From positions 538,001-602,000 of the forward strand of contig NZ_FXAK01000002.1 in NCBI RefSeq assembly GCF_900177515.1: a stretch of 64,000 nt of DNA, given 5' to 3'. Numbering within the stretch: position 1 is the first letter of the stretch; each line of letters starts with the position of its first letter. Made by a program: the position numbers and the translations under genes. The stretch comes from Azospirillum oryzae (lineage in GTDB: Bacteria; Pseudomonadota; Alphaproteobacteria; Azospirillales; Azospirillaceae). Below, in pieces: positions 20,838 to 28,735 of the stretch. The notes beneath the pieces were generated by a model. It worked only from the letters and a program-made list of their open reading frames with translations. It ran no database searches and was not told the DNA's origin.

Positions 20838-21785
20838 ATGACCCAGACCACCAACGCCGAGCTGCTCGACCGGCCGCTGCAATTGGCTCTGCGGCTCGAT
20901 TCCCCGCTGACCGGCGATGTCCAGAACGACCGCCACATGATGGTCTACAGCCTGTTCGGCCTGTCGAAGGACAAGGCGGAATCGCTGCCGACCTATGATG
21001 ACGGCAAGGTGCGGATCGAGGTGCGGGCGCCGAAGAATGTCGGCGTTGCGACGATCTGGGACAAGGCGGTGCTGCTCTACGCCATCTCGCTGCTGCGCGA
21101 GAAGATGGACTCCGGCAAGGGCCCCTCCAAGCTGGGCGAGTTGCACTTCACCACCAGCGACCTCCAGCGCATCGTCGGCAAGACCGCCGGCGGCAGCGCC
21201 TACGACAAGATCGAAGGCGCGCTGGAGCGGCTGCAGGGCACCCAGATCAAGACCAACCTGGAAACCGGCGGGGAGGGCGAGAGCGGCGCCTTCTCGTGGA
21301 TTTCCGACTACAAGCTGCTCTACCAGCGCAAGAAGGACGGCGAGCGGGCGGTGCGCGGTCTGAAGCTGACGCTGTCGGGCTGGGTCACCCGCGCGGCGCT
21401 GGGCCACAATCTGCTGAGCTACGACGACCAGTATTTCGCACTGAAGCCGGTGGAAAAGCGCCTGTACGAGATCGCCCGCGCCCACCTCGCCCGCGGCCAT
21501 GCCTTCTGGATGGCGCTGGAGCCGCTGCGCAAGCGCGTCGGCTCCGACAACGACCTGCGCAAGTTCAAGAACGCGCTCGGCCCCGTCCTCGCCGCCGACC
21601 GCATCCCCGGCTATGGCGTCCGCATCGTCGAGACGGCGGAATACAAGGAAACCATGAAGGCGCGCGGCGCCGTTCAGGGCCGCGTGCTGAACGCCGAGTT
21701 GCCGGTCCTGTTCTGGAAGAAGGACCAGGGCCAGCCGGAAAACTGGATCGACGTTCCCAAGGTGGAATACGACGAAACGGTCTGA
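20838..21785 (+). CDS. Plasmid-type replication initiator, RPA (replication initiator protein A) family
   Basis: This 315-aa protein resembles the RPA initiator family of alphaproteobacterial plasmids and chromids. It has an N-terminal segment PLQLALRLDSPLTGDVQNDR, a central DNA-binding part (LHFTTSDLQRIVGKTAGGS, YDKIEGALERLQGTQIKTN) and a second winged-helix-like part ending FLW-type KKDQGQPENWIDVPK. The start at 20838 follows GGAGAG by 5 bases; the frame is open farther upstream but runs through the iterons. It would bind the adjacent iterons and recruit the replication machinery. parA follows by 104 bp. Confidence 0.85.
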   Translation: MTQTTNAELLDRPLQLALRLDSPLTGDVQNDRHMMVYSLFGLSKDKAESLPTYDDGKVRIEVRAPKNVGVATIWDKAVLLYAISLLREKMDSGKGPSKLGELHFTTSDLQRIVGKTAGGSAYDKIEGALERLQGTQIKTNLETGGEGESGAFSWISDYKLLYQRKKDGERAVRGLKLTLSGWVTRAALGHNLLSYDDQYFALKPVEKRLYEIARAHLARGHAFWMALEPLRKRVGSDNDLRKFKNALGPVLAADRIPGYGVRIVETAEYKETMKARGAVQGRVLNAELPVLFWKKDQGQPENWIDVPKVEYDETV

Positions 21786-21889
21786 TCCCCTGCCCCTCCG
21801 GCCACACCCGTTTGGTAGACACCCGTTGCCGGAGTCGCGACAACTTGCTAGGGTCGCTGCCAACCGGTGCCGGGGCAGGAGGACGGGGC

Positions 21890-22912
21890 GTGACAGGGGA
21901 ACAGTTGAAGGCGTTGCGGGAACGGCGCGGCCTGACCCAGACGCAGATGGCGGCTTATGTCAATGAATTGACCGGCCGCAAATATGACAAGCAGCGGCTC
22001 AGCAAGTGGGAAACCGGCAAGGAGGCCCTGCCCCGCGACCTGCTGGGCCGGCTTCTGCTGCTGGATCTGGAACGGCCGGAAAGCGCCCTGCCCCGCCGCG
22101 GCACCACCGTCGCCGTCGGCCTGCAGAAGGGCGGCACCGCCAAGACCGCGACCTCCATCAACCTTGCCTTCATCCTGGCGCGTGCCGGCAACCGCGTCCT
22201 GCTGGTCGATGCCGACCCGCAGGGCAACGCCACCGTCCATGTCGGCGTGCCGCAGACCGACGTGGTGGCGCTGACCGAGGCGGGCAAGGTCCTCTACCAC
22301 GCGCTGATGGGCAAGACCCCGCTCGACGCGGTGATCCTTCCCACCAGTGTGGAGGGGCTGGACGTCGTCCCCTCCAGCATCGCGCTGGCCAGTGCCGACA
22401 CCGAGCTGCCGGGCAACCTGACCAACGCCCAGACGGCCCTTGCCGAGATGCTGGACGGCGTGCGCGAGCGCTATGATGTGATCGTCATCGACTGCGCCCC
22501 CAACCTCGGCGCCGTCACCATCAACGCGCTGACCGCCGCCGATTACGTCCTGGTGCCCTGTCAGGCGGAACCGCACGCCATCCTCGGCGTCAGCGCCTTC
22601 CTCGACACCGTCGCCAAGATCCAGCGTCGCCTCAACCCGCGGCTGGAGGTGCTGGGCATCCTGCCCACCATGGTCAACCCGCGCCAGACCCAGGACCGCT
22701 CGTCGCTCGACGACATCCAGCGCCTGTGGGGCGACAGCCGCCGCGTGTTCCCGCCGGTGCCGCGCGCCACCATCTACGCCCAGGCGGCGGGCGCCAACGT
22801 CATCACGCTGGACGCCGACATCGGCGCCCCCGGTGTGGAGAGCTATGCCGCCATCGCCTCCGCTCTGCTGACCGCCATGGGCCGCCTGCAGGAGACCGTC
22901 GATGCCGCCTAA
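21890..22912 (+). CDS. parA: ParA partition ATPase with N-terminal HTH (type Ia)
   Basis: This 340-aa protein begins with an XRE-like helix-turn-helix (residues 1-60: LKALRERRGLTQTQMAAY, QRLSKWETGKEALPRDL). The ATPase domain follows, with deviant Walker A LQKGGTAKTATSINLAF, DADPQGNAT, and Walker B-like VIVIDCAPNLG. The GTG start at 21890 has AGGAGG 5 bases upstream. The HTH form is typical of ParA proteins that repress their own operon and move ParB-bound DNA. It overlaps parB by 11 bp. Confidence 0.93.
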   Translation: MTGEQLKALRERRGLTQTQMAAYVNELTGRKYDKQRLSKWETGKEALPRDLLGRLLLLDLERPESALPRRGTTVAVGLQKGGTAKTATSINLAFILARAGNRVLLVDADPQGNATVHVGVPQTDVVALTEAGKVLYHALMGKTPLDAVILPTSVEGLDVVPSSIALASADTELPGNLTNAQTALAEMLDGVRERYDVIVIDCAPNLGAVTINALTAADYVLVPCQAEPHAILGVSAFLDTVAKIQRRLNPRLEVLGILPTMVNPRQTQDRSSLDDIQRLWGDSRRVFPPVPRATIYAQAAGANVITLDADIGAPGVESYAAIASALLTAMGRLQETVDAA

Positions 22913-23756
22913 GAAGCTGACCCGGCAGACCGCCGCCACCGTTCTTCAGGCCAAGGAGGCCGGCTTCGCCGCCGAGACCGACCGCATGTTCGGGCTGAGC
23001 GGCGTGCTGCCCCGGCTGGTCGAGGTCGATCTGGACGCCGTCGAGACCAACCCCGGCCAGCCGCGCACGGTGTTCGACGACGAGTCCCTGCGCTCGCTGG
23101 CCGACTCCATCGCCCGCCACGGGTTGCAGCAACCCGTGCTGGTGCAGGAGGGGACGGAGAAGGGCCGCTATCGGCTGGTGGCCGGCGAACGGCGGTTGCG
23201 CGCCCACCGGCTGCTCGGCCGCGGCACCATCGCCGCCATCATCACCAAGGGCCGGCCGGAAGAGATCGCGCTGATCGAGAATGTCCAGCGCGTGGACCTC
23301 GACGCCATCGACCTCGCCCGCGGCCTGTCGCAGCTGATCGAGGCGCATGGCTACACCCAGACGGAGGTGGCGGCGGCCGTCGGCTGCTCGGAGGCCGAGG
23401 TGTCGAAGCGCCTGAAGGTGCTGCGCCTGCCCGACGACATCCTCGCCGACTACCGCGCCAACCCCGACGCGGTGTCGCGCTCCGCCCTGGTCGAGCTGGC
23501 CTTCGTCGAGGACGAGGCGGAACTGCGCCGGCTGTGGCAGACGGCGCGGACCGGCGGGCTGACGGTCGGCGCGGTGCGGGCGGCCCGTCCGGCGGCCTCC
23601 AGCACGGCGGAGCCGCTGCGGGTGCTGGGCAAGGCGATCAACCGGATGGACAAGGACCTCGCCGCCATCGACACCGTCGCCCAGGCCCTCCAGCGCGAAC
23701 ACCGCGAACGGCTGCAGGCCCTGCGCGACCGCATCGACGCCCTGTTGAACGGCTGA
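22902..23756 (+). CDS. parB: ParB centromere-binding partition protein
   Basis: This 284-aa protein has the ParB/Spo0J N-terminal domain (NPGQPRTVFDDESLRSLADS, the CTP-binding motif region LVAGERRLRAHRLLG, IENVQRVDLDAIDLARGLSQ) and the HTH (YTQTEVAAAVGCSEAEVSKR). A C-terminal helix would mediate dimerisation. It overlaps parA and is followed within 100 bp by two similar palindromes that are good parS candidates. Confidence 0.94.
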   Translation: MPPKKLTRQTAATVLQAKEAGFAAETDRMFGLSGVLPRLVEVDLDAVETNPGQPRTVFDDESLRSLADSIARHGLQQPVLVQEGTEKGRYRLVAGERRLRAHRLLGRGTIAAIITKGRPEEIALIENVQRVDLDAIDLARGLSQLIEAHGYTQTEVAAAVGCSEAEVSKRLKVLRLPDDILADYRANPDAVSRSALVELAFVEDEAELRRLWQTARTGGLTVGAVRAARPAASSTAEPLRVLGKAINRMDKDLAAIDTVAQALQREHRERLQALRDRIDALLNG

Positions 23757-24010: not shown

Positions 24011-25564
24011 ATGCCGGCGGTGCAAAGACGACAGTTCCTGCGATTGCTCGGCAGCCTCCTTGGGGTGGCCGGTCTGGCCGGCGCGCTGCCGCGTCCGGCG
24101 ATGGCCGCCGCCCCTGCCCTGCGGATCGGGCTGAAATCCCTGCCCGGCGCGATCAACCCGCTGACCGTCAATGATCTGGTCGCACGTCAGGTCCTCGGCT
24201 CGATGTATGAGAGCCTGACCACGGTCGATCCGGAGGGCCGCATTCTTCCCGGCCTCGCCACCGCCTGGGAAGGGTCGGAGGACGCCCGCCACTGGCGGCT
24301 GACCATCCGCGACAACGTCACCTTCCACACCGGCCGGCCGCTGACCGCCGCCGACGTCAAGCGCAGCTTCGAGGCGGCGCTCGCCGGCGACGGCGCCAAC
24401 TTCGCAGTGCTGGCCCTGTCCAAGGTGCGGGGCTTCCGCGAATTGCGGGCAAAGACCACGACCGAACTGTCGGGCATCACCGTCATCGACGACCGGACGC
24501 TGGAGGTGGTCTGCGACGAACCCTGCGCCGTCTTCCCCTTCGCCCGGCTGAACATCGTCGATGTGGATGCGGCGGAAAAGGCCGGCCCCGACTGGTTCCG
24601 CACCATGTCGGCCGGAACCGGCCCCTACCGGCTGGTGCGGTCGAACGACGGCATCCGCATGGATGTGGAGGCCATTCCCGGCTGGCGCGGCGGTGCGGTG
24701 CCGTTCGAGCGGGTGTCCTTCCTCGCCACCGGCATCGGCAACGACGGCATCACCCTGTTCAACGACAGCCAGATCGACTTCACCTTCGTCGACACCGACG
24801 CGCTGCGCGGGGTGATGGACGATCCCGGCTTCAAACGCTGGCTGTCCAATGTGCCGCGCATGCAGATGCGGGTGGTCGCGCTCGATCCCCGGCGGGTGAA
24901 GGCCTTCGCCGATCTGCGGGTGCGCCGGGCGATGTCGCTGCTGATCGACCGCGCGGCGATGGCGGAACGCTTCTTCCGCGGGGTGGCGACCGTTCACAAC
25001 GGCATCGTTCCCCCGGCGCTGCTGTCGAACGAGAAGCTCCAGCCGCTGGCCTACGATCCGATGCTGGCGAAGCAACTGCTGGAGGAGGCGGGCTATCCGG
25101 AAGGCCGCGGCATGGATCCCTTCCAGGTCGCGGTCATTCCGGAATACCGGCGGGAGTTCGTCTATTACGTCTCGCAATGGAACAATGCGGGCATTCCGGC
25201 GAAGCTGGTGATCTCTCCGCGGCAGGAGTTCATCTCGCGATCCCGCCGGCGCGACTATGATTCCTTCCTGTTCGGCTGGACCGCCACCTATCCCGATCCG
25301 ATGAATTTCCTCGACGAGCTGTTCAGCAGCCGCAGCCGCTTCAACCCGGTCGGCTGGTCGAATGCGCAGTTCGACGCCCTGATCGAGCAGGCGATGGCCA
25401 TCCCCGATTCCGGCCGTCGTGCCGAGGTCTACAAGGACGCCGAATGTCTGGTGATGAACGACCTGCCCGTGATTCCGCTGGTCGTGCCGGACTATGTCGC
25501 ACTGCGCGGCAATGTGCTGAGCGAGAATTTCATCACCCCGTTCGGCGGCCTGAACTTCGGCTGA
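24011..25564 (+). CDS. Tat-exported ABC transporter substrate-binding protein, family 5 (peptide/nickel type)
   Basis: This 517-aa protein has a twin-arginine signal (RRQFLRLLGSLLGVAGLAG, cut near AMAAAP), so it is exported folded. The mature part is a family 5 solute-binding protein: LVARQVLGSMYESLTTVD near the N-terminus, ATAWEGSEDARHWRLTIRDN, FHTGRPLTAADVKRSFEAAL, and a C-terminal domain with FGWTATYPDPMNFLDELFSS. Such proteins feed oligopeptides, opines or metals to ABC importers. No permease or ATPase gene is adjacent, so it is an orphan or serves a distant transporter. It ends at a bidirectional terminator. Confidence 0.9.
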   Translation: MPAVQRRQFLRLLGSLLGVAGLAGALPRPAMAAAPALRIGLKSLPGAINPLTVNDLVARQVLGSMYESLTTVDPEGRILPGLATAWEGSEDARHWRLTIRDNVTFHTGRPLTAADVKRSFEAALAGDGANFAVLALSKVRGFRELRAKTTTELSGITVIDDRTLEVVCDEPCAVFPFARLNIVDVDAAEKAGPDWFRTMSAGTGPYRLVRSNDGIRMDVEAIPGWRGGAVPFERVSFLATGIGNDGITLFNDSQIDFTFVDTDALRGVMDDPGFKRWLSNVPRMQMRVVALDPRRVKAFADLRVRRAMSLLIDRAAMAERFFRGVATVHNGIVPPALLSNEKLQPLAYDPMLAKQLLEEAGYPEGRGMDPFQVAVIPEYRREFVYYVSQWNNAGIPAKLVISPRQEFISRSRRRDYDSFLFGWTATYPDPMNFLDELFSSRSRFNPVGWSNAQFDALIEQAMAIPDSGRRAEVYKDAECLVMNDLPVIPLVVPDYVALRGNVLSENFITPFGGLNFG

Positions 25565-25597: not shown

Positions 25598-25634
25598 AAA
25601 AAAGCCCCTGTCCGCTGCCGGACAGGGGCTTTTT
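25598..25634. terminator. Bidirectional intrinsic terminator
   Basis: An A6 run, GCCCCTGTCCG, a 4-nt loop, CGGACAGGGGC and a T5 run form an 11-bp perfect stem. It sits between the solute-binding protein gene and the convergent repeat-protein gene and can serve both. Confidence 0.93.
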
Positions 25635-25652: not shown

Positions 25653-26429
25653 TCAGACGGCGCCCTGCGACCGCGCTTCGCGCAGACAGTCGGCCGGCTT
25701 GGCCTCACGGAGACAGTCAGCCTTCGCGGCCTCACGGAGGCAATCGGCAGTCTTCGCTTCGCGCAGGCAATCGGCCTTCGCGGCCTCACGGAGGCAGTCG
25801 GCAGTCTTCGCTTCGCGCAGGCAATCGGCCTTCGCGGCCTCACGGAGGCAGTCGGCGGTCTTCGCCTCACGCAGGCAATCGGCCTTCACGGCCTCACGGA
25901 GGCAGTCGGCCGGCTTGGCTTCACGCAGGCAATCGGCTTGCGCGGCTTCGCGCAGACAATCCGCGGCCTTCGCTTCGCGCAGGCAATCGGCCTTCGCGGC
26001 CTCACGCAGGCAGTCGGCAGTCTTCGCTTCCCGCAGGCAGTCCGCCTTTGCGGCCTCGCGCAGGCAATCGGCCCCGGCGAACAGGCGGGCGCTGTCGGTG
26101 CGGGCGGCGGCCATGCGCTCGGCCGGAACGGCGACGCCGTTGTGATGCAGGTATTCGCCATAGACCGCCTCGCAGAAGCGGAAATAGGCGCGGGTGTCGG
26201 CGACGATGAACTCGTGCCACAGATCGTCGCAGGCGGCGGATTGCGGGACGATGTCGCGATCCGGATGCTCGGCGCAGGCCAGCAGGAAGTCCTTCAGCTG
26301 GGCCAGGGCGATCCCGGACGTGCTGCGGGTCATGCCTGCGGCGACGGCGCGTTCGACCACATAGCCGAAGTCGAAGCCGGCGATGATGTCACGGGCACGG
26401 GTGGTGTCGGTCGGGGTGGCGCCGCGCAT
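25653..26429 (-). CDS. Protein with fifteen tandem 9-residue Cys-containing repeats
   Basis: This 258-aa protein has two parts. Residues 1-119 form a globular-looking domain (IIAGFDFGYVVERAVAAG, ALAQLKDFLLACAEHPDRD, CDDLWHEFIVADTRAYFRF), similar to small proteins related to the glycine-rich-domain-protein family. Residues 120-254 are fifteen copies of ADCLREA followed by two variable residues, alternating AAK-type and AKT/AKP-type units to give an 18-residue super-repeat, then QGAV. Frame-open starts exist at 26513 (GTG) and 26483, but ATG 26429 has GGAGG eight bases upstream and is chosen. Every repeat carries one Cys, one Asp, Arg and Glu at fixed positions. The repeats look helical. Function is unknown. 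Confidence 0.8.
   Translation of the reverse strand: MRGATPTDTTRARDIIAGFDFGYVVERAVAAGMTRSTSGIALAQLKDFLLACAEHPDRDIVPQSAACDDLWHEFIVADTRAYFRFCEAVYGEYLHHNGVAVPAERMAAARTDSARLFAGADCLREAAKADCLREAKTADCLREAAKADCLREAKAADCLREAAQADCLREAKPADCLREAVKADCLREAKTADCLREAAKADCLREAKTADCLREAAKADCLREAKTADCLREAAKADCLREAKPADCLREARSQGAV
25668..26072 (-). repeat. Fifteen tandem 27-bp coding repeats
   Basis: The array is 405 bp, fifteen exact-length 27-bp units encoding A-D-C-L-R-E-A-x-x. Neighbouring units alternate in the last two codons, giving a 54-bp higher-order period. Units differ mainly by synonymous changes (for example TCACGG versus TCGCGC in the plus reading), which suggests expansion by duplication with some later drift. 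There are no spacers, so this is not a CRISPR array. Confidence 0.95.
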
Positions 26430-26576
26430 GAAATCCTCCGAGGTTGCTTTTTCGCCCTTGGACGGGGTTGCAGGAATGTCCATGGGCACCGCCCGATTGT
26501 TGTGCCACAGCACAGCCGGATATGTGAGATAATTTTGGTACTAAATATCCGCTGCCCGGAGGATGTCCGCAATTGG

Positions 26577-28514
26577 TCAGGTCTTATGCGGAGAGGCGGT
26601 GTCGAGCGGAAGCGCTGCCGCCGGCCGTCCGGCCGTCATCTGCTCCACCAGAACCGACAGCCGGTCCGGCATGATCGGCTTGGCGGCCACGGTGACGCCC
26701 ATCGCCGCCGCGCGCGCCGTCACCGCGCCGTCCAACCGGCCGGAGATCAGCACCGCCGGGATGCGCAGCCCCAGCCGCCGCCAAACCGTCTCGATGAAGT
26801 CCAGGCCGTTCTCGCTGGCCGACAGGTGGTAATCGGCGATCACCGCGTCGGGGCGGACGGTGCCGTCCTCCACCGCGCGCAGCCCTTGCGCAACCGTGGA
26901 GGCGCCGACGACGCGGTGTCCCGCCGTGGTGAGGAACATCGAAATGGCCGACAGCACGAACTGGTCGTCGTCGATCACCAGGATCGCGATCTCGCCGTCC
27001 TTCGCCGGCGCATCGGCCAGCGTCGCGACCGCCGCACGCTCGGCAGGAGCGGGGGCAGGGGCAGGAGCGGGGGCAGGAAATGGGGCAGCCGCAAGGGGTG
27101 CCGGCTCGTCCACCGCCCCTCCGGCAAGCTCCACCGGCGCCAGCGGCACGGTGACCGAGAAGACCGACCCCTTGCCCGGCGTGGAGCGCACCTTGACCGG
27201 ATGGTCCAGCACCGTGGCCAGCCGCTGGACGATCGACAGGCCGAGCCCGATGCCGTTGTCGCGGTTGCGTTCCGGGTTGCCGATCTGGTGGAACTCCTCC
27301 CAGATGGCATCCAGCCGGTCCTCGGGGATGCCGATGCCGGTGTCCCGCACCTCGACGATCAGGCTGCCGCCCGATTCCAGGCAGGCGACCTGAACCTGAC
27401 CGGAATTCGTGTAGCGGATCGCGTTGTCGATCAGGTTGCCCAGCAGCCGCAGCAACAGCACCCGGTCGGTCAGCACCGCCGCGCGATGCTGCGGCACGGC
27501 GAAGACCAGCCCCTTGCCGCGGGCGACCGGGCCATACTGCGAATCCAGCGCCTCGAACAGGTCGGCGACCTCATGCACCGCCTTGTTGGCGGTGACGCCG
27601 CCGGCATCCAGCCGCGACACCTCCAGCAGTTCGTCCAGCAGCTGCTTCAGCGTCATCACCACCTGTTCGATCTTGCGCGCGGAGTCCGCCACCTTCGGAT
27701 TGGGGGCGGTGGCGCGCAGCATGGCGGTCAGCATCAGCAGCGATTGGGCCGGCTGGCGCAGGTCGTGGCTGGCGGCGGCCATGAACTTGGCCTTCGACGC
27801 CACCGCCTGCTCCGCCCGCTCCTTGGCGGCGCGCAGGTCGATGGCGTTCTGGCGGAAGGTGCCGAGCGCTTTCGCCATCCGTCCGATCTCGTCGTCGCGG
27901 TGGCGCACCGGCACGGTCACCGTCACGTCGCCGGCCGCCAGATCGTCCATGGCGCGGGTCATGCCGGCGATGGGCAGCGTCACGCCGCGCGTCGCCCAGA
28001 TCACGCCCAGCACCACCAGCAGAAGCGCCGCGATGCCGATCCCGCCCAGCACCAGCACATGGTGGCGGATGGCGTCGTCGGTCGGCCCGGTGTCCAGCCT
28101 GACCAGCAGGGTGCCGATGCTGCGGGCGGCGCCGCTGCGGTCCTGGTGGGTCAGCGGCACCGCCGCCACCGTGGCGGTATCCTCCGCGCCGATGCTGGTG
28201 CCCGGCTTGCGGTAGACGGCGAAGCGTTCGCCGTGCGTGCCCATGATCACCGCTTCGGCGAAGCTGTCGATCGAGCGCAGCGGGCTCAGCGCCGTCGCCG
28301 CCTCTTCGGGGTCGAGGTCCCACAGCGCGTTCGTCACGTCGTCCAGCACGATGCGGGTCGCCATCTCCGCCCGGATGGCCAGCTCGGCCCGGGTGTTCCG
28401 CACATCGGCCTGGATCAGCACGATCATCGGCACGGCGACCAGCACCGACACCAGCAACACCGCCGATGCCGTCGTTCGGGCGACCAGGCTCCGTGAGAAG
28501 ATCTTCAAGAACAT
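26577..28514 (-). CDS. Membrane-bound hybrid sensor histidine kinase with HAMP and receiver
   Basis: This 645-aa protein has a transmembrane helix at about 13-35, a periplasmic sensor region at about 36-150, and a second helix at about 153-175. A HAMP domain follows (DLAAGDVTVTVPVRHRDDEIG), then a kinase with His250 in ASHDLRQPAQSLL, an ATPase domain (GNLIDNAIRYTNSG, DTGIGIPED, GIGLGLSIVQRL), a Pro/Ala-rich linker, and a receiver with VIDDDQF, VIADYHLS and AAKPIMP. The start at 28514 gives a short basic N-terminus before the first helix. It is divergent from another hybrid kinase with about 220 bp between them. Its HDLRQP H-box matches the kinase at 2439-4922. Confidence 0.92.
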   Translation of the reverse strand: MFLKIFSRSLVARTTASAVLLVSVLVAVPMIVLIQADVRNTRAELAIRAEMATRIVLDDVTNALWDLDPEEAATALSPLRSIDSFAEAVIMGTHGERFAVYRKPGTSIGAEDTATVAAVPLTHQDRSGAARSIGTLLVRLDTGPTDDAIRHHVLVLGGIGIAALLLVVLGVIWATRGVTLPIAGMTRAMDDLAAGDVTVTVPVRHRDDEIGRMAKALGTFRQNAIDLRAAKERAEQAVASKAKFMAAASHDLRQPAQSLLMLTAMLRATAPNPKVADSARKIEQVVMTLKQLLDELLEVSRLDAGGVTANKAVHEVADLFEALDSQYGPVARGKGLVFAVPQHRAAVLTDRVLLLRLLGNLIDNAIRYTNSGQVQVACLESGGSLIVEVRDTGIGIPEDRLDAIWEEFHQIGNPERNRDNGIGLGLSIVQRLATVLDHPVKVRSTPGKGSVFSVTVPLAPVELAGGAVDEPAPLAAAPFPAPAPAPAPAPAERAAVATLADAPAKDGEIAILVIDDDQFVLSAISMFLTTAGHRVVGASTVAQGLRAVEDGTVRPDAVIADYHLSASENGLDFIETVWRRLGLRIPAVLISGRLDGAVTARAAAMGVTVAAKPIMPDRLSVLVEQMTAGRPAAALPLDTASPHKT

Positions 28515-28735
28515 GCCGAAGCCACCGAGAACAAGACGACCACGAACAACTCGCCGCGCCATCCTAGCCGAACCGCCGGGCAAACACGACAGCCACGTAA
28601 CGCCGCCGGTCAAGCCGCCATCATCGGTAGTAGTAGGAAAAAAGGCGGTATGACTGTTTCGAATCGTTTCTTCTTCTTGTTCGATTGCCTGTGTAGAAAT
28701 TCGCGTCGAGCCGGGGGAGCGGGGAGGGCGGAGGA
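28515..28735. other. Divergent intergenic region between two hybrid kinases
   Basis: No gene is seen. The half nearest the plus-strand kinase is AT-rich (around 28630-28690) and probably contains both promoters. I see no convincing repeat. Confidence 0.5.

Follow-up and report, generated by a model that had tools for sequence, protein, structure and literature searches.

A fifteen-unit cysteine array fused to a predicted GRDP-like domain in Azospirillum oryzae: a possible multi-core RiPP-type precursor

A gene in a 64,000-nucleotide stretch of Azospirillum oryzae DNA (the window; contig NZ_FXAK01000002.1, positions 538,001 to 602,000) encodes a 258-residue protein in which a predicted GRDP-like domain is joined to fifteen tandem units of the form ADCLREAxx. 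Our preferred reading, to which we give about even credence, is that this protein is a fused multi-core precursor of the RiPP type with a GRDP-like domain that acts on the Cys units, by handling or modifying them. Each nine-residue unit would be one core built around an invariant D-C-L-R, with its last two residues as a free spacer. The GRDP-like domain would bind or chemically modify the Cys of each unit in cis, and elsewhere separately encoded GRDP-like proteins would act in trans on short Cys peptides. Copy number would set the dose of one product and not the variety of products. The computed support for this reading consists of the array itself, selection on the core but not on the spacer, the recurrence of this domain with other amplified cores of one Cys each, and the presence of GRDP-like genes beside separate small Cys-peptide genes with export or uptake machinery. 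From these observations we infer that the Cys is modified, that the GRDP-like domain is the agent, and that the peptide is cleaved or released and leaves the cell.

The coding sequence lies at 25653-26429 on the minus strand. The longest open reading frame (25653-26513) starts at a GTG at 26513 and specifies 286 residues. The ATG at 26429 is the likely start codon, since it is preceded by a GGAGG Shine-Dalgarno sequence (26435-26439, minus strand) and both are conserved in most orthologues. An alignment of orthologue upstream regions revealed a conserved block, ACCAAAATTATCTCACATATCCGGCTGTGCTGTGGCACAACAA (26497-26541, minus strand), which is a probable promoter or operator; no sigma-70 consensus was found upstream of the gene. 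An intrinsic terminator hairpin at 25598-25634, missed by a simple scan, is common to both convergent genes (16-bp stem, -32.1 kcal/mol, z -5.3 on the minus strand). The convergent gene (24011-25564, plus strand) encodes an oligopeptide-type solute-binding protein (SBP_bac_5, Pfam 1.6e-64) whose nearest solved structures are OppA and DppA. Upstream on the same strand (26577-28613) is a hybrid sensor kinase with the order CHASE8-HAMP-HisKA-HATPase-REC, its CHASE8 match being below threshold (26.4 bits against a Pfam cut-off of 27). Synteny with both neighbors is kept in orthologues. No protease, exporter or known maturase adjoins the window gene, which counts against a RiPP-type precursor. Additionally, ParA- and ParB-like genes lie at 21296-23756 of the window, about 2.3 kb from the repeat gene, and an A. 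ramasamyi plasmid carries the annotated order RepA-ParA-ParB-SBP-GRDP. The repeat gene therefore appears to lie next to the partition locus that serves a secondary replicon.

The array forms the C-terminal half of the protein (residues 120-254; 25668-26072, minus strand) and consists of fifteen ADCLREAxx units set back to back with zero gaps, exactly as a sequence-only reading of this DNA had described it. A multi-core precursor carries at least two core copies per polypeptide, and fifteen are present here. Each nine residues hold one Cys, with none closer, and no CxC or CxxC clusters of the kind that mark metallothioneins were found in the window array or others of the CLREA group. Tandem Repeats Finder assigned the array a 27-bp period (14.6 copies, 70% match) and, with a better score, a 54-bp period (7.1 copies, 85% match). 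Because the 54-bp period scores better, the alternation of two unit types and the 18-residue super-period proposed in that reading are real within the window array. Elsewhere they do not hold and are lineage-specific: the A. picis array is made of 11 identical ADCLREAKA units, and alternation is absent from the arrays at three other loci (L016, L018 and L019).

Orthologues with the same repeats occur across many Azospirillum species, with 3-17 units each; one search returned 13 Azospirillum records and another search added further species. In a pooled set of 165 units from 19 sequences, selected by the pattern xDCLR so that decayed units might escape, the D, C, L and R residues are invariant in all 165, and A1, E6 and A7 vary. 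The spacing between units is nine residues in every case. Because this spacing is unbroken, no unit was skipped inside the arrays, although units at array ends could still have been missed. The codons of the invariant core are mixed, with GAC and GAT in a ratio of 87:78, Leu encoded by CTG, CTC, TTG and CTT, and Arg by CGC, CGT, CGG and others. For the pooled core pS was 0.65 and pN 0.026 (pN/pS 0.04), as opposed to 0.53 and 0.55 for the spacer (pN/pS about 1.0). The window array alone gave the same contrast (core pS 0.64, pN 0.000; spacer pS 0.44, pN 0.54). Each CLREA core is under selection and the spacer is free. This core/spacer contrast, seen in the CLREA group and in other arrays, is the pattern of a RiPP precursor whose core is under its own selection. 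The occurrence of orthologues in independent assemblies, together with the almost purely synonymous change in the core, rules out an assembly artefact or an untranslated repeat, and the turnover of codons while residues persist rules out a role at the DNA level. The same evidence bears out the earlier view of a translated, regular Cys array joined to a non-repetitive N-terminal domain.

The N-terminal domain (residues 1-119; 26073-26429, minus strand), with the sequence pattern DDLWHEF...Y..FC...YG.YLHH, is best described as a small, helical, divergent GRDP-like domain (PF07173, formerly DUF1399), judged by its relatives' profile matches and its modeled fold. The window domain alone matched no Pfam or NCBIfam model, PF07173 included; that profile was matched by five of ten relatives in one alignment (best 9.8e-7). 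Modeled alone with AlphaFold2, the domain reached a pLDDT of 80 and a pTM of 0.74, and the top Foldseek match of the model was a Harvfovirus GRDP-like protein (probability 1.00, TM 0.61/0.55, E only 0.09), with an Orpheovirus GRDP also listed (probability 0.80). Foldseek thus placed the model with the GRDP-like fold. No relative of solved structure was found in the PDB, nor any match in PHROGs. Matches to Pfam DUF3991 and Vanabin-2 and to NCBIfam EntC/SMc04171 were below cut-off and driven by composition, and were rejected. In the non-redundant family alignment, which follows the pattern D..WH...Y...C....G...HH, residues W66, H67, Y76, G85 and H90 are 97-100% conserved, D63 95%, C80 92% and H89 86%. 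Conservation of W66, H67, Y76, G85 and H90 at this level is as would be expected for an active or metal site. The domain is larger and better conserved than the usual leaders, which argues against a RiPP-type precursor. Giant viruses also encode GRDP-like proteins, as the Foldseek matches indicate, and a 595-kb uncultured huge phage (L255, 2959-3573) encodes one with a His/Cys/Gly-rich tail.

As the sequence-only reading had suggested looking for, the domain occurs in other species apart from the ADCLREAxx repeats, with other Cys tails or with none. The domain is also present in distant paralogues, both within Azospirillum and outside it, whose tails end in different Cys motifs, single (such as AGCYLTVEAA and ASCLRPLPRAA) or repeated. 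At least eight other cores have been amplified on GRDP-like domains. One genome (G594) holds both AYCAGPHIG in nine copies and AFCAGPH in eight, AYCAR is present five times in two Cupriavidus and AWCSL three times in Variovorax, and the further amplified cores include GAGCF (six copies), GAACYLS (four), LCVPS (five) and AMCGG (six). The one-Cys-per-unit arrays of these relatives have periods of 10, 15, 16-19, 17 and 23 residues. The cores of these arrays are conserved and their spacers more diverged, strongly so for GAGCF, AFCAGPH and AYCAR; the core pN is a lower bound for some of them, AFCAGPH included, because the whole core had been prescribed in the search. In the domain tree, which has few columns and many open forks, one CLREA clade is supported and arrays are scattered over the tree, in agreement with their unrelated core sequences. 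A tail Cys was found in 102 of 127 non-redundant GRDP-like domains, 39 of these 102 being Gly-rich, and Cys makes up 7.4% of the last 40 residues as compared with 1.9% of the domain. Larger family members with Gly/Cys-rich tails are numerous, and some tails are zinc-ribbon-like (RCPNCGRR). The A. oryzae genome itself has two further GRDP-Cys genes (C8:23847-24176 and C6:180587-180913), each adjoining a PAS-LuxR gene and ending in a single Cys tail, ASCLRPLPRAA and AANCLVMPTL, respectively.

Several GRDP-like genes without a tail have a small separate Cys-peptide gene (42-58 residues) beside them, often near peptide-export machinery; around several others, a point against the RiPP-type reading, no clear Cys peptide was seen. 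A basic ORF-calling script supplied the genes in contigs that had no annotation, and several of the cases that follow come from closely related genomes and are not independent. In P. savastanoi (two plasmids) and Halomonas, a 42-44-residue peptide ending in GGGHCQGGG[GS]W is encoded just upstream of the GRDP gene. The gene downstream encodes a polytopic protein, for which the Halomonas copy gave a weak MATE-like match. A related set of seven gammaproteobacterial genomes, from four families, carries a short ORF directly upstream of the GRDP gene with a three-Cys end such as AACNGKCSGGVC, one copy having an apparent frameshift. The neighbors in several of these seven are a TonB-dependent receptor and TonB, an ABC ATPase with an ABC-2 permease, or an S10 carboxypeptidase. 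Stanieria encodes a 43-residue peptide containing AAFCFLMPEAGFCFL, followed by a methyltransferase. In one genome (G590), consecutive genes encode three double-glycine-leader peptides (for example ...NISGG|REESFCLELCLEFCLSLCFE), two GRDP-like proteins, HlyD and a C39-peptidase ABC exporter; besides the GRDP-like genes, nothing in this cassette is a candidate for a modifying enzyme. Candidate genes for leader removal or export occur in some relatives (C39-ABC with HlyD; ABC; S10 peptidase; MATE-like) and not at the window gene. The association of GRDP-like proteins with ribosomally made Cys peptides is most strongly supported by the gene adjacency at these separate-peptide loci. Several kilobases from the G590 GRDP operon lies a gene for a further double-glycine-leader-like peptide (L270, 1049-1231, minus strand; ...DSVSGG|QLADDGICTGHQFCEMPPDRNNN). 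The Halomonas cassette (L251, 2972-4529) adjoins genes for a LuxR-type autoinducer receptor and an annotated acyl-homoserine-lactone synthase.

We considered several proteins as common partners of the GRDP-like genes. Two genomes (G233 and G136) carry arrays with no match to MNIO, YcaO or SPASM, indicating that none of the known Cys-modifying RiPP enzymes tested is general. At four of four loci in three small alphaproteobacterial genomes, the GRDP-Cys gene converges tail-to-tail on a gene for an HTH-methyltransferase fusion; these fusion genes are missing at the Azospirillum paralogues, and the Stanieria methyltransferase differs from them, so this fusion is not a universal partner. Nor is the peptide-binding SBP5 protein, which is present in the CLREA group but otherwise at only a few paralogue loci. 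No known class of modifying enzyme adjoins the window gene, and the candidate for a dedicated one is the GRDP-like domain itself. Regulatory genes recur as neighbors. A PAS-LuxR-type regulator gene, whose HTH part is recognized, adjoins 19 of 21 non-CLREA Azospirillum loci, and in the window genome both full-length members of this family adjoin the other two GRDP genes. Downstream of an A. brasilense relative come a regulator, an SBP and two permeases. The gene immediately upstream codes for a CHASE-domain sensor in G594, Variovorax and Cupriavidus, cases of possibly common origin; the output of the sensor differs (kinase; GGDEF-EAL). CHASE genes total four in G594 and one on each plasmid. Since Cys-peptide GRDP genes repeatedly adjoin sensors or regulators, a signal role for the product is a reasonable guess only, weaker than the proposals of modification or release.

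Other explanations of the array have to be weighed against a multi-core precursor. The main one, which we consider unlikely, is a metal or redox buffer or sensor, in which a flexible multi-thiol tail held by a His-rich metal domain would bind Cu(I), Zn or Ni or cycle through disulfides while the neighboring genes sense the metal or redox state. The invariant Cys and the conserved WH.H...HH of the domain would suit such a role, as would the relatives next to TonB receptors and Opp/Nik-type transporters and those with Gly/Cys-rich or zinc-ribbon-like tails, the latter fitting metal binding and speaking against a RiPP-type precursor. However, D, L and R are kept as strictly as C, and other cores retain aromatic or hydrophobic partners (AYC, AWC, GAGCF) that metal binding does not need. 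Furthermore, the arrays have one Cys per 9-23 residues without CxC or CxxC, and many relatives have a single tail Cys. A metal or redox role is therefore possible but not the best fit, because selection covers the whole D-C-L-R core and not Cys alone. Next in order, and a little less probable still, the units could be short linear motifs of a docking tail that recruits a partner such as the neighboring kinase or regulator, with repetition raising avidity. A conserved core with a free spacer, the conserved neighboring sensors and regulators and the absence of a maturase beside the window gene are all compatible with docking, but docking would not account for a Cys that is strictly invariant in every lineage's cores, or for the loci where the peptides are separate, carry double-glycine leaders and adjoin a C39 exporter.

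The earlier proposal, a redox or metal scaffold built as a single long and rigid alpha helix whose Cys residues alternate between faces, now seems very improbable. Nine residues equal 2.5 helical turns, the spacing in the CLREA group is always nine, and units rich in Ala, Arg, Glu and Lys favor helix. In the full-length AlphaFold2 prediction, made with 14 close orthologues only as input, the repeats nevertheless had pLDDT values of about 28-48, with broken helices and no confident fold. The striped Cys faces drawn from the 18-residue phase are not supported either, as that phase is not conserved between species and the equivalent arrays with periods of 10-23 residues share no helical phase. 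Nor is the regular Arg/Glu/Lys spacing on which the proposal relied kept: E6 is V in A. ramasamyi, and the K position is without detectable constraint. The array thus shows no continuous confident helix of conserved phase. Local helix within CLREA units, where the spacing is strictly nine, is possible.

Returning to a fused multi-core precursor, its relatives suggest an undescribed family of ribosomally made Cys peptides. A more tentative proposal is that GRDP-like (PF07173) domains represent a novel type of peptide-maturation protein, modifying the Cys of short A-x-C-type cores that are either fused to the domain in arrays or borne on separate precursors, whether double-glycine-leader peptides or other small ones. 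If so, they would define a new RiPP class across alpha-, beta- and gammaproteobacteria and cyanobacteria and give the first lead on the role of PF07173 in plants and giant viruses. The recurrent pairing with Cys peptides in cis or in trans, sometimes in a complete export cassette, means that PF07173 can be tested directly for a new activity, in modifying or in carrying peptides. A genome-mining rule also follows, a GRDP-like gene plus a Cys peptide, for finding peptides that would probably escape current RiPP tools, which start from known maturases.

Our literature searches on PF07173/DUF1399 returned plant papers and association studies, with no biochemical function and no link to bacterial peptides. 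In the plant proteins AtGRDP1 and AtGRDP2, PF07173 is accompanied by an RNP motif and a Gly-rich domain (PMC4299439). The window protein appears to share their domain type, by its relatives' profile matches and its predicted fold, but its tail is a discrete Cys-core array and its domain alone falls below Pfam detection. The microviridin precursor AMdnA is a multi-core RiPP precursor with several cores per polypeptide and short spacers (PMC5934393). The window protein is alike in core repetition, whereas it has a folded, conserved N-terminal domain and near-identical Cys cores, and its gene has no known ligase or cyclase beside it. The G590 cassette shares the C39-peptidase ABC exporter and HlyD of bacteriocin and microcin cassettes with double-glycine leaders, which are absent beside the window gene; we found no paper placing GRDP-like genes in such cassettes. 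Metallothioneins likewise have several Cys per chain and a possible capacity for metal binding, but the window array differs in its lack of CxC/CxxC clusters, its low Cys density and its equally conserved non-Cys residues. Finally, borosins include fused enzyme-core precursors (PMC7878506) and the split type IV (PMC8429565). The GRDP-like systems resemble them in layout, since in some genomes the domain and the C-terminal cores form one protein and in others the small precursor has its own gene, and differ in that the GRDP-like domain is no methyltransferase and only a putative enzyme, and that the cores center on Cys.
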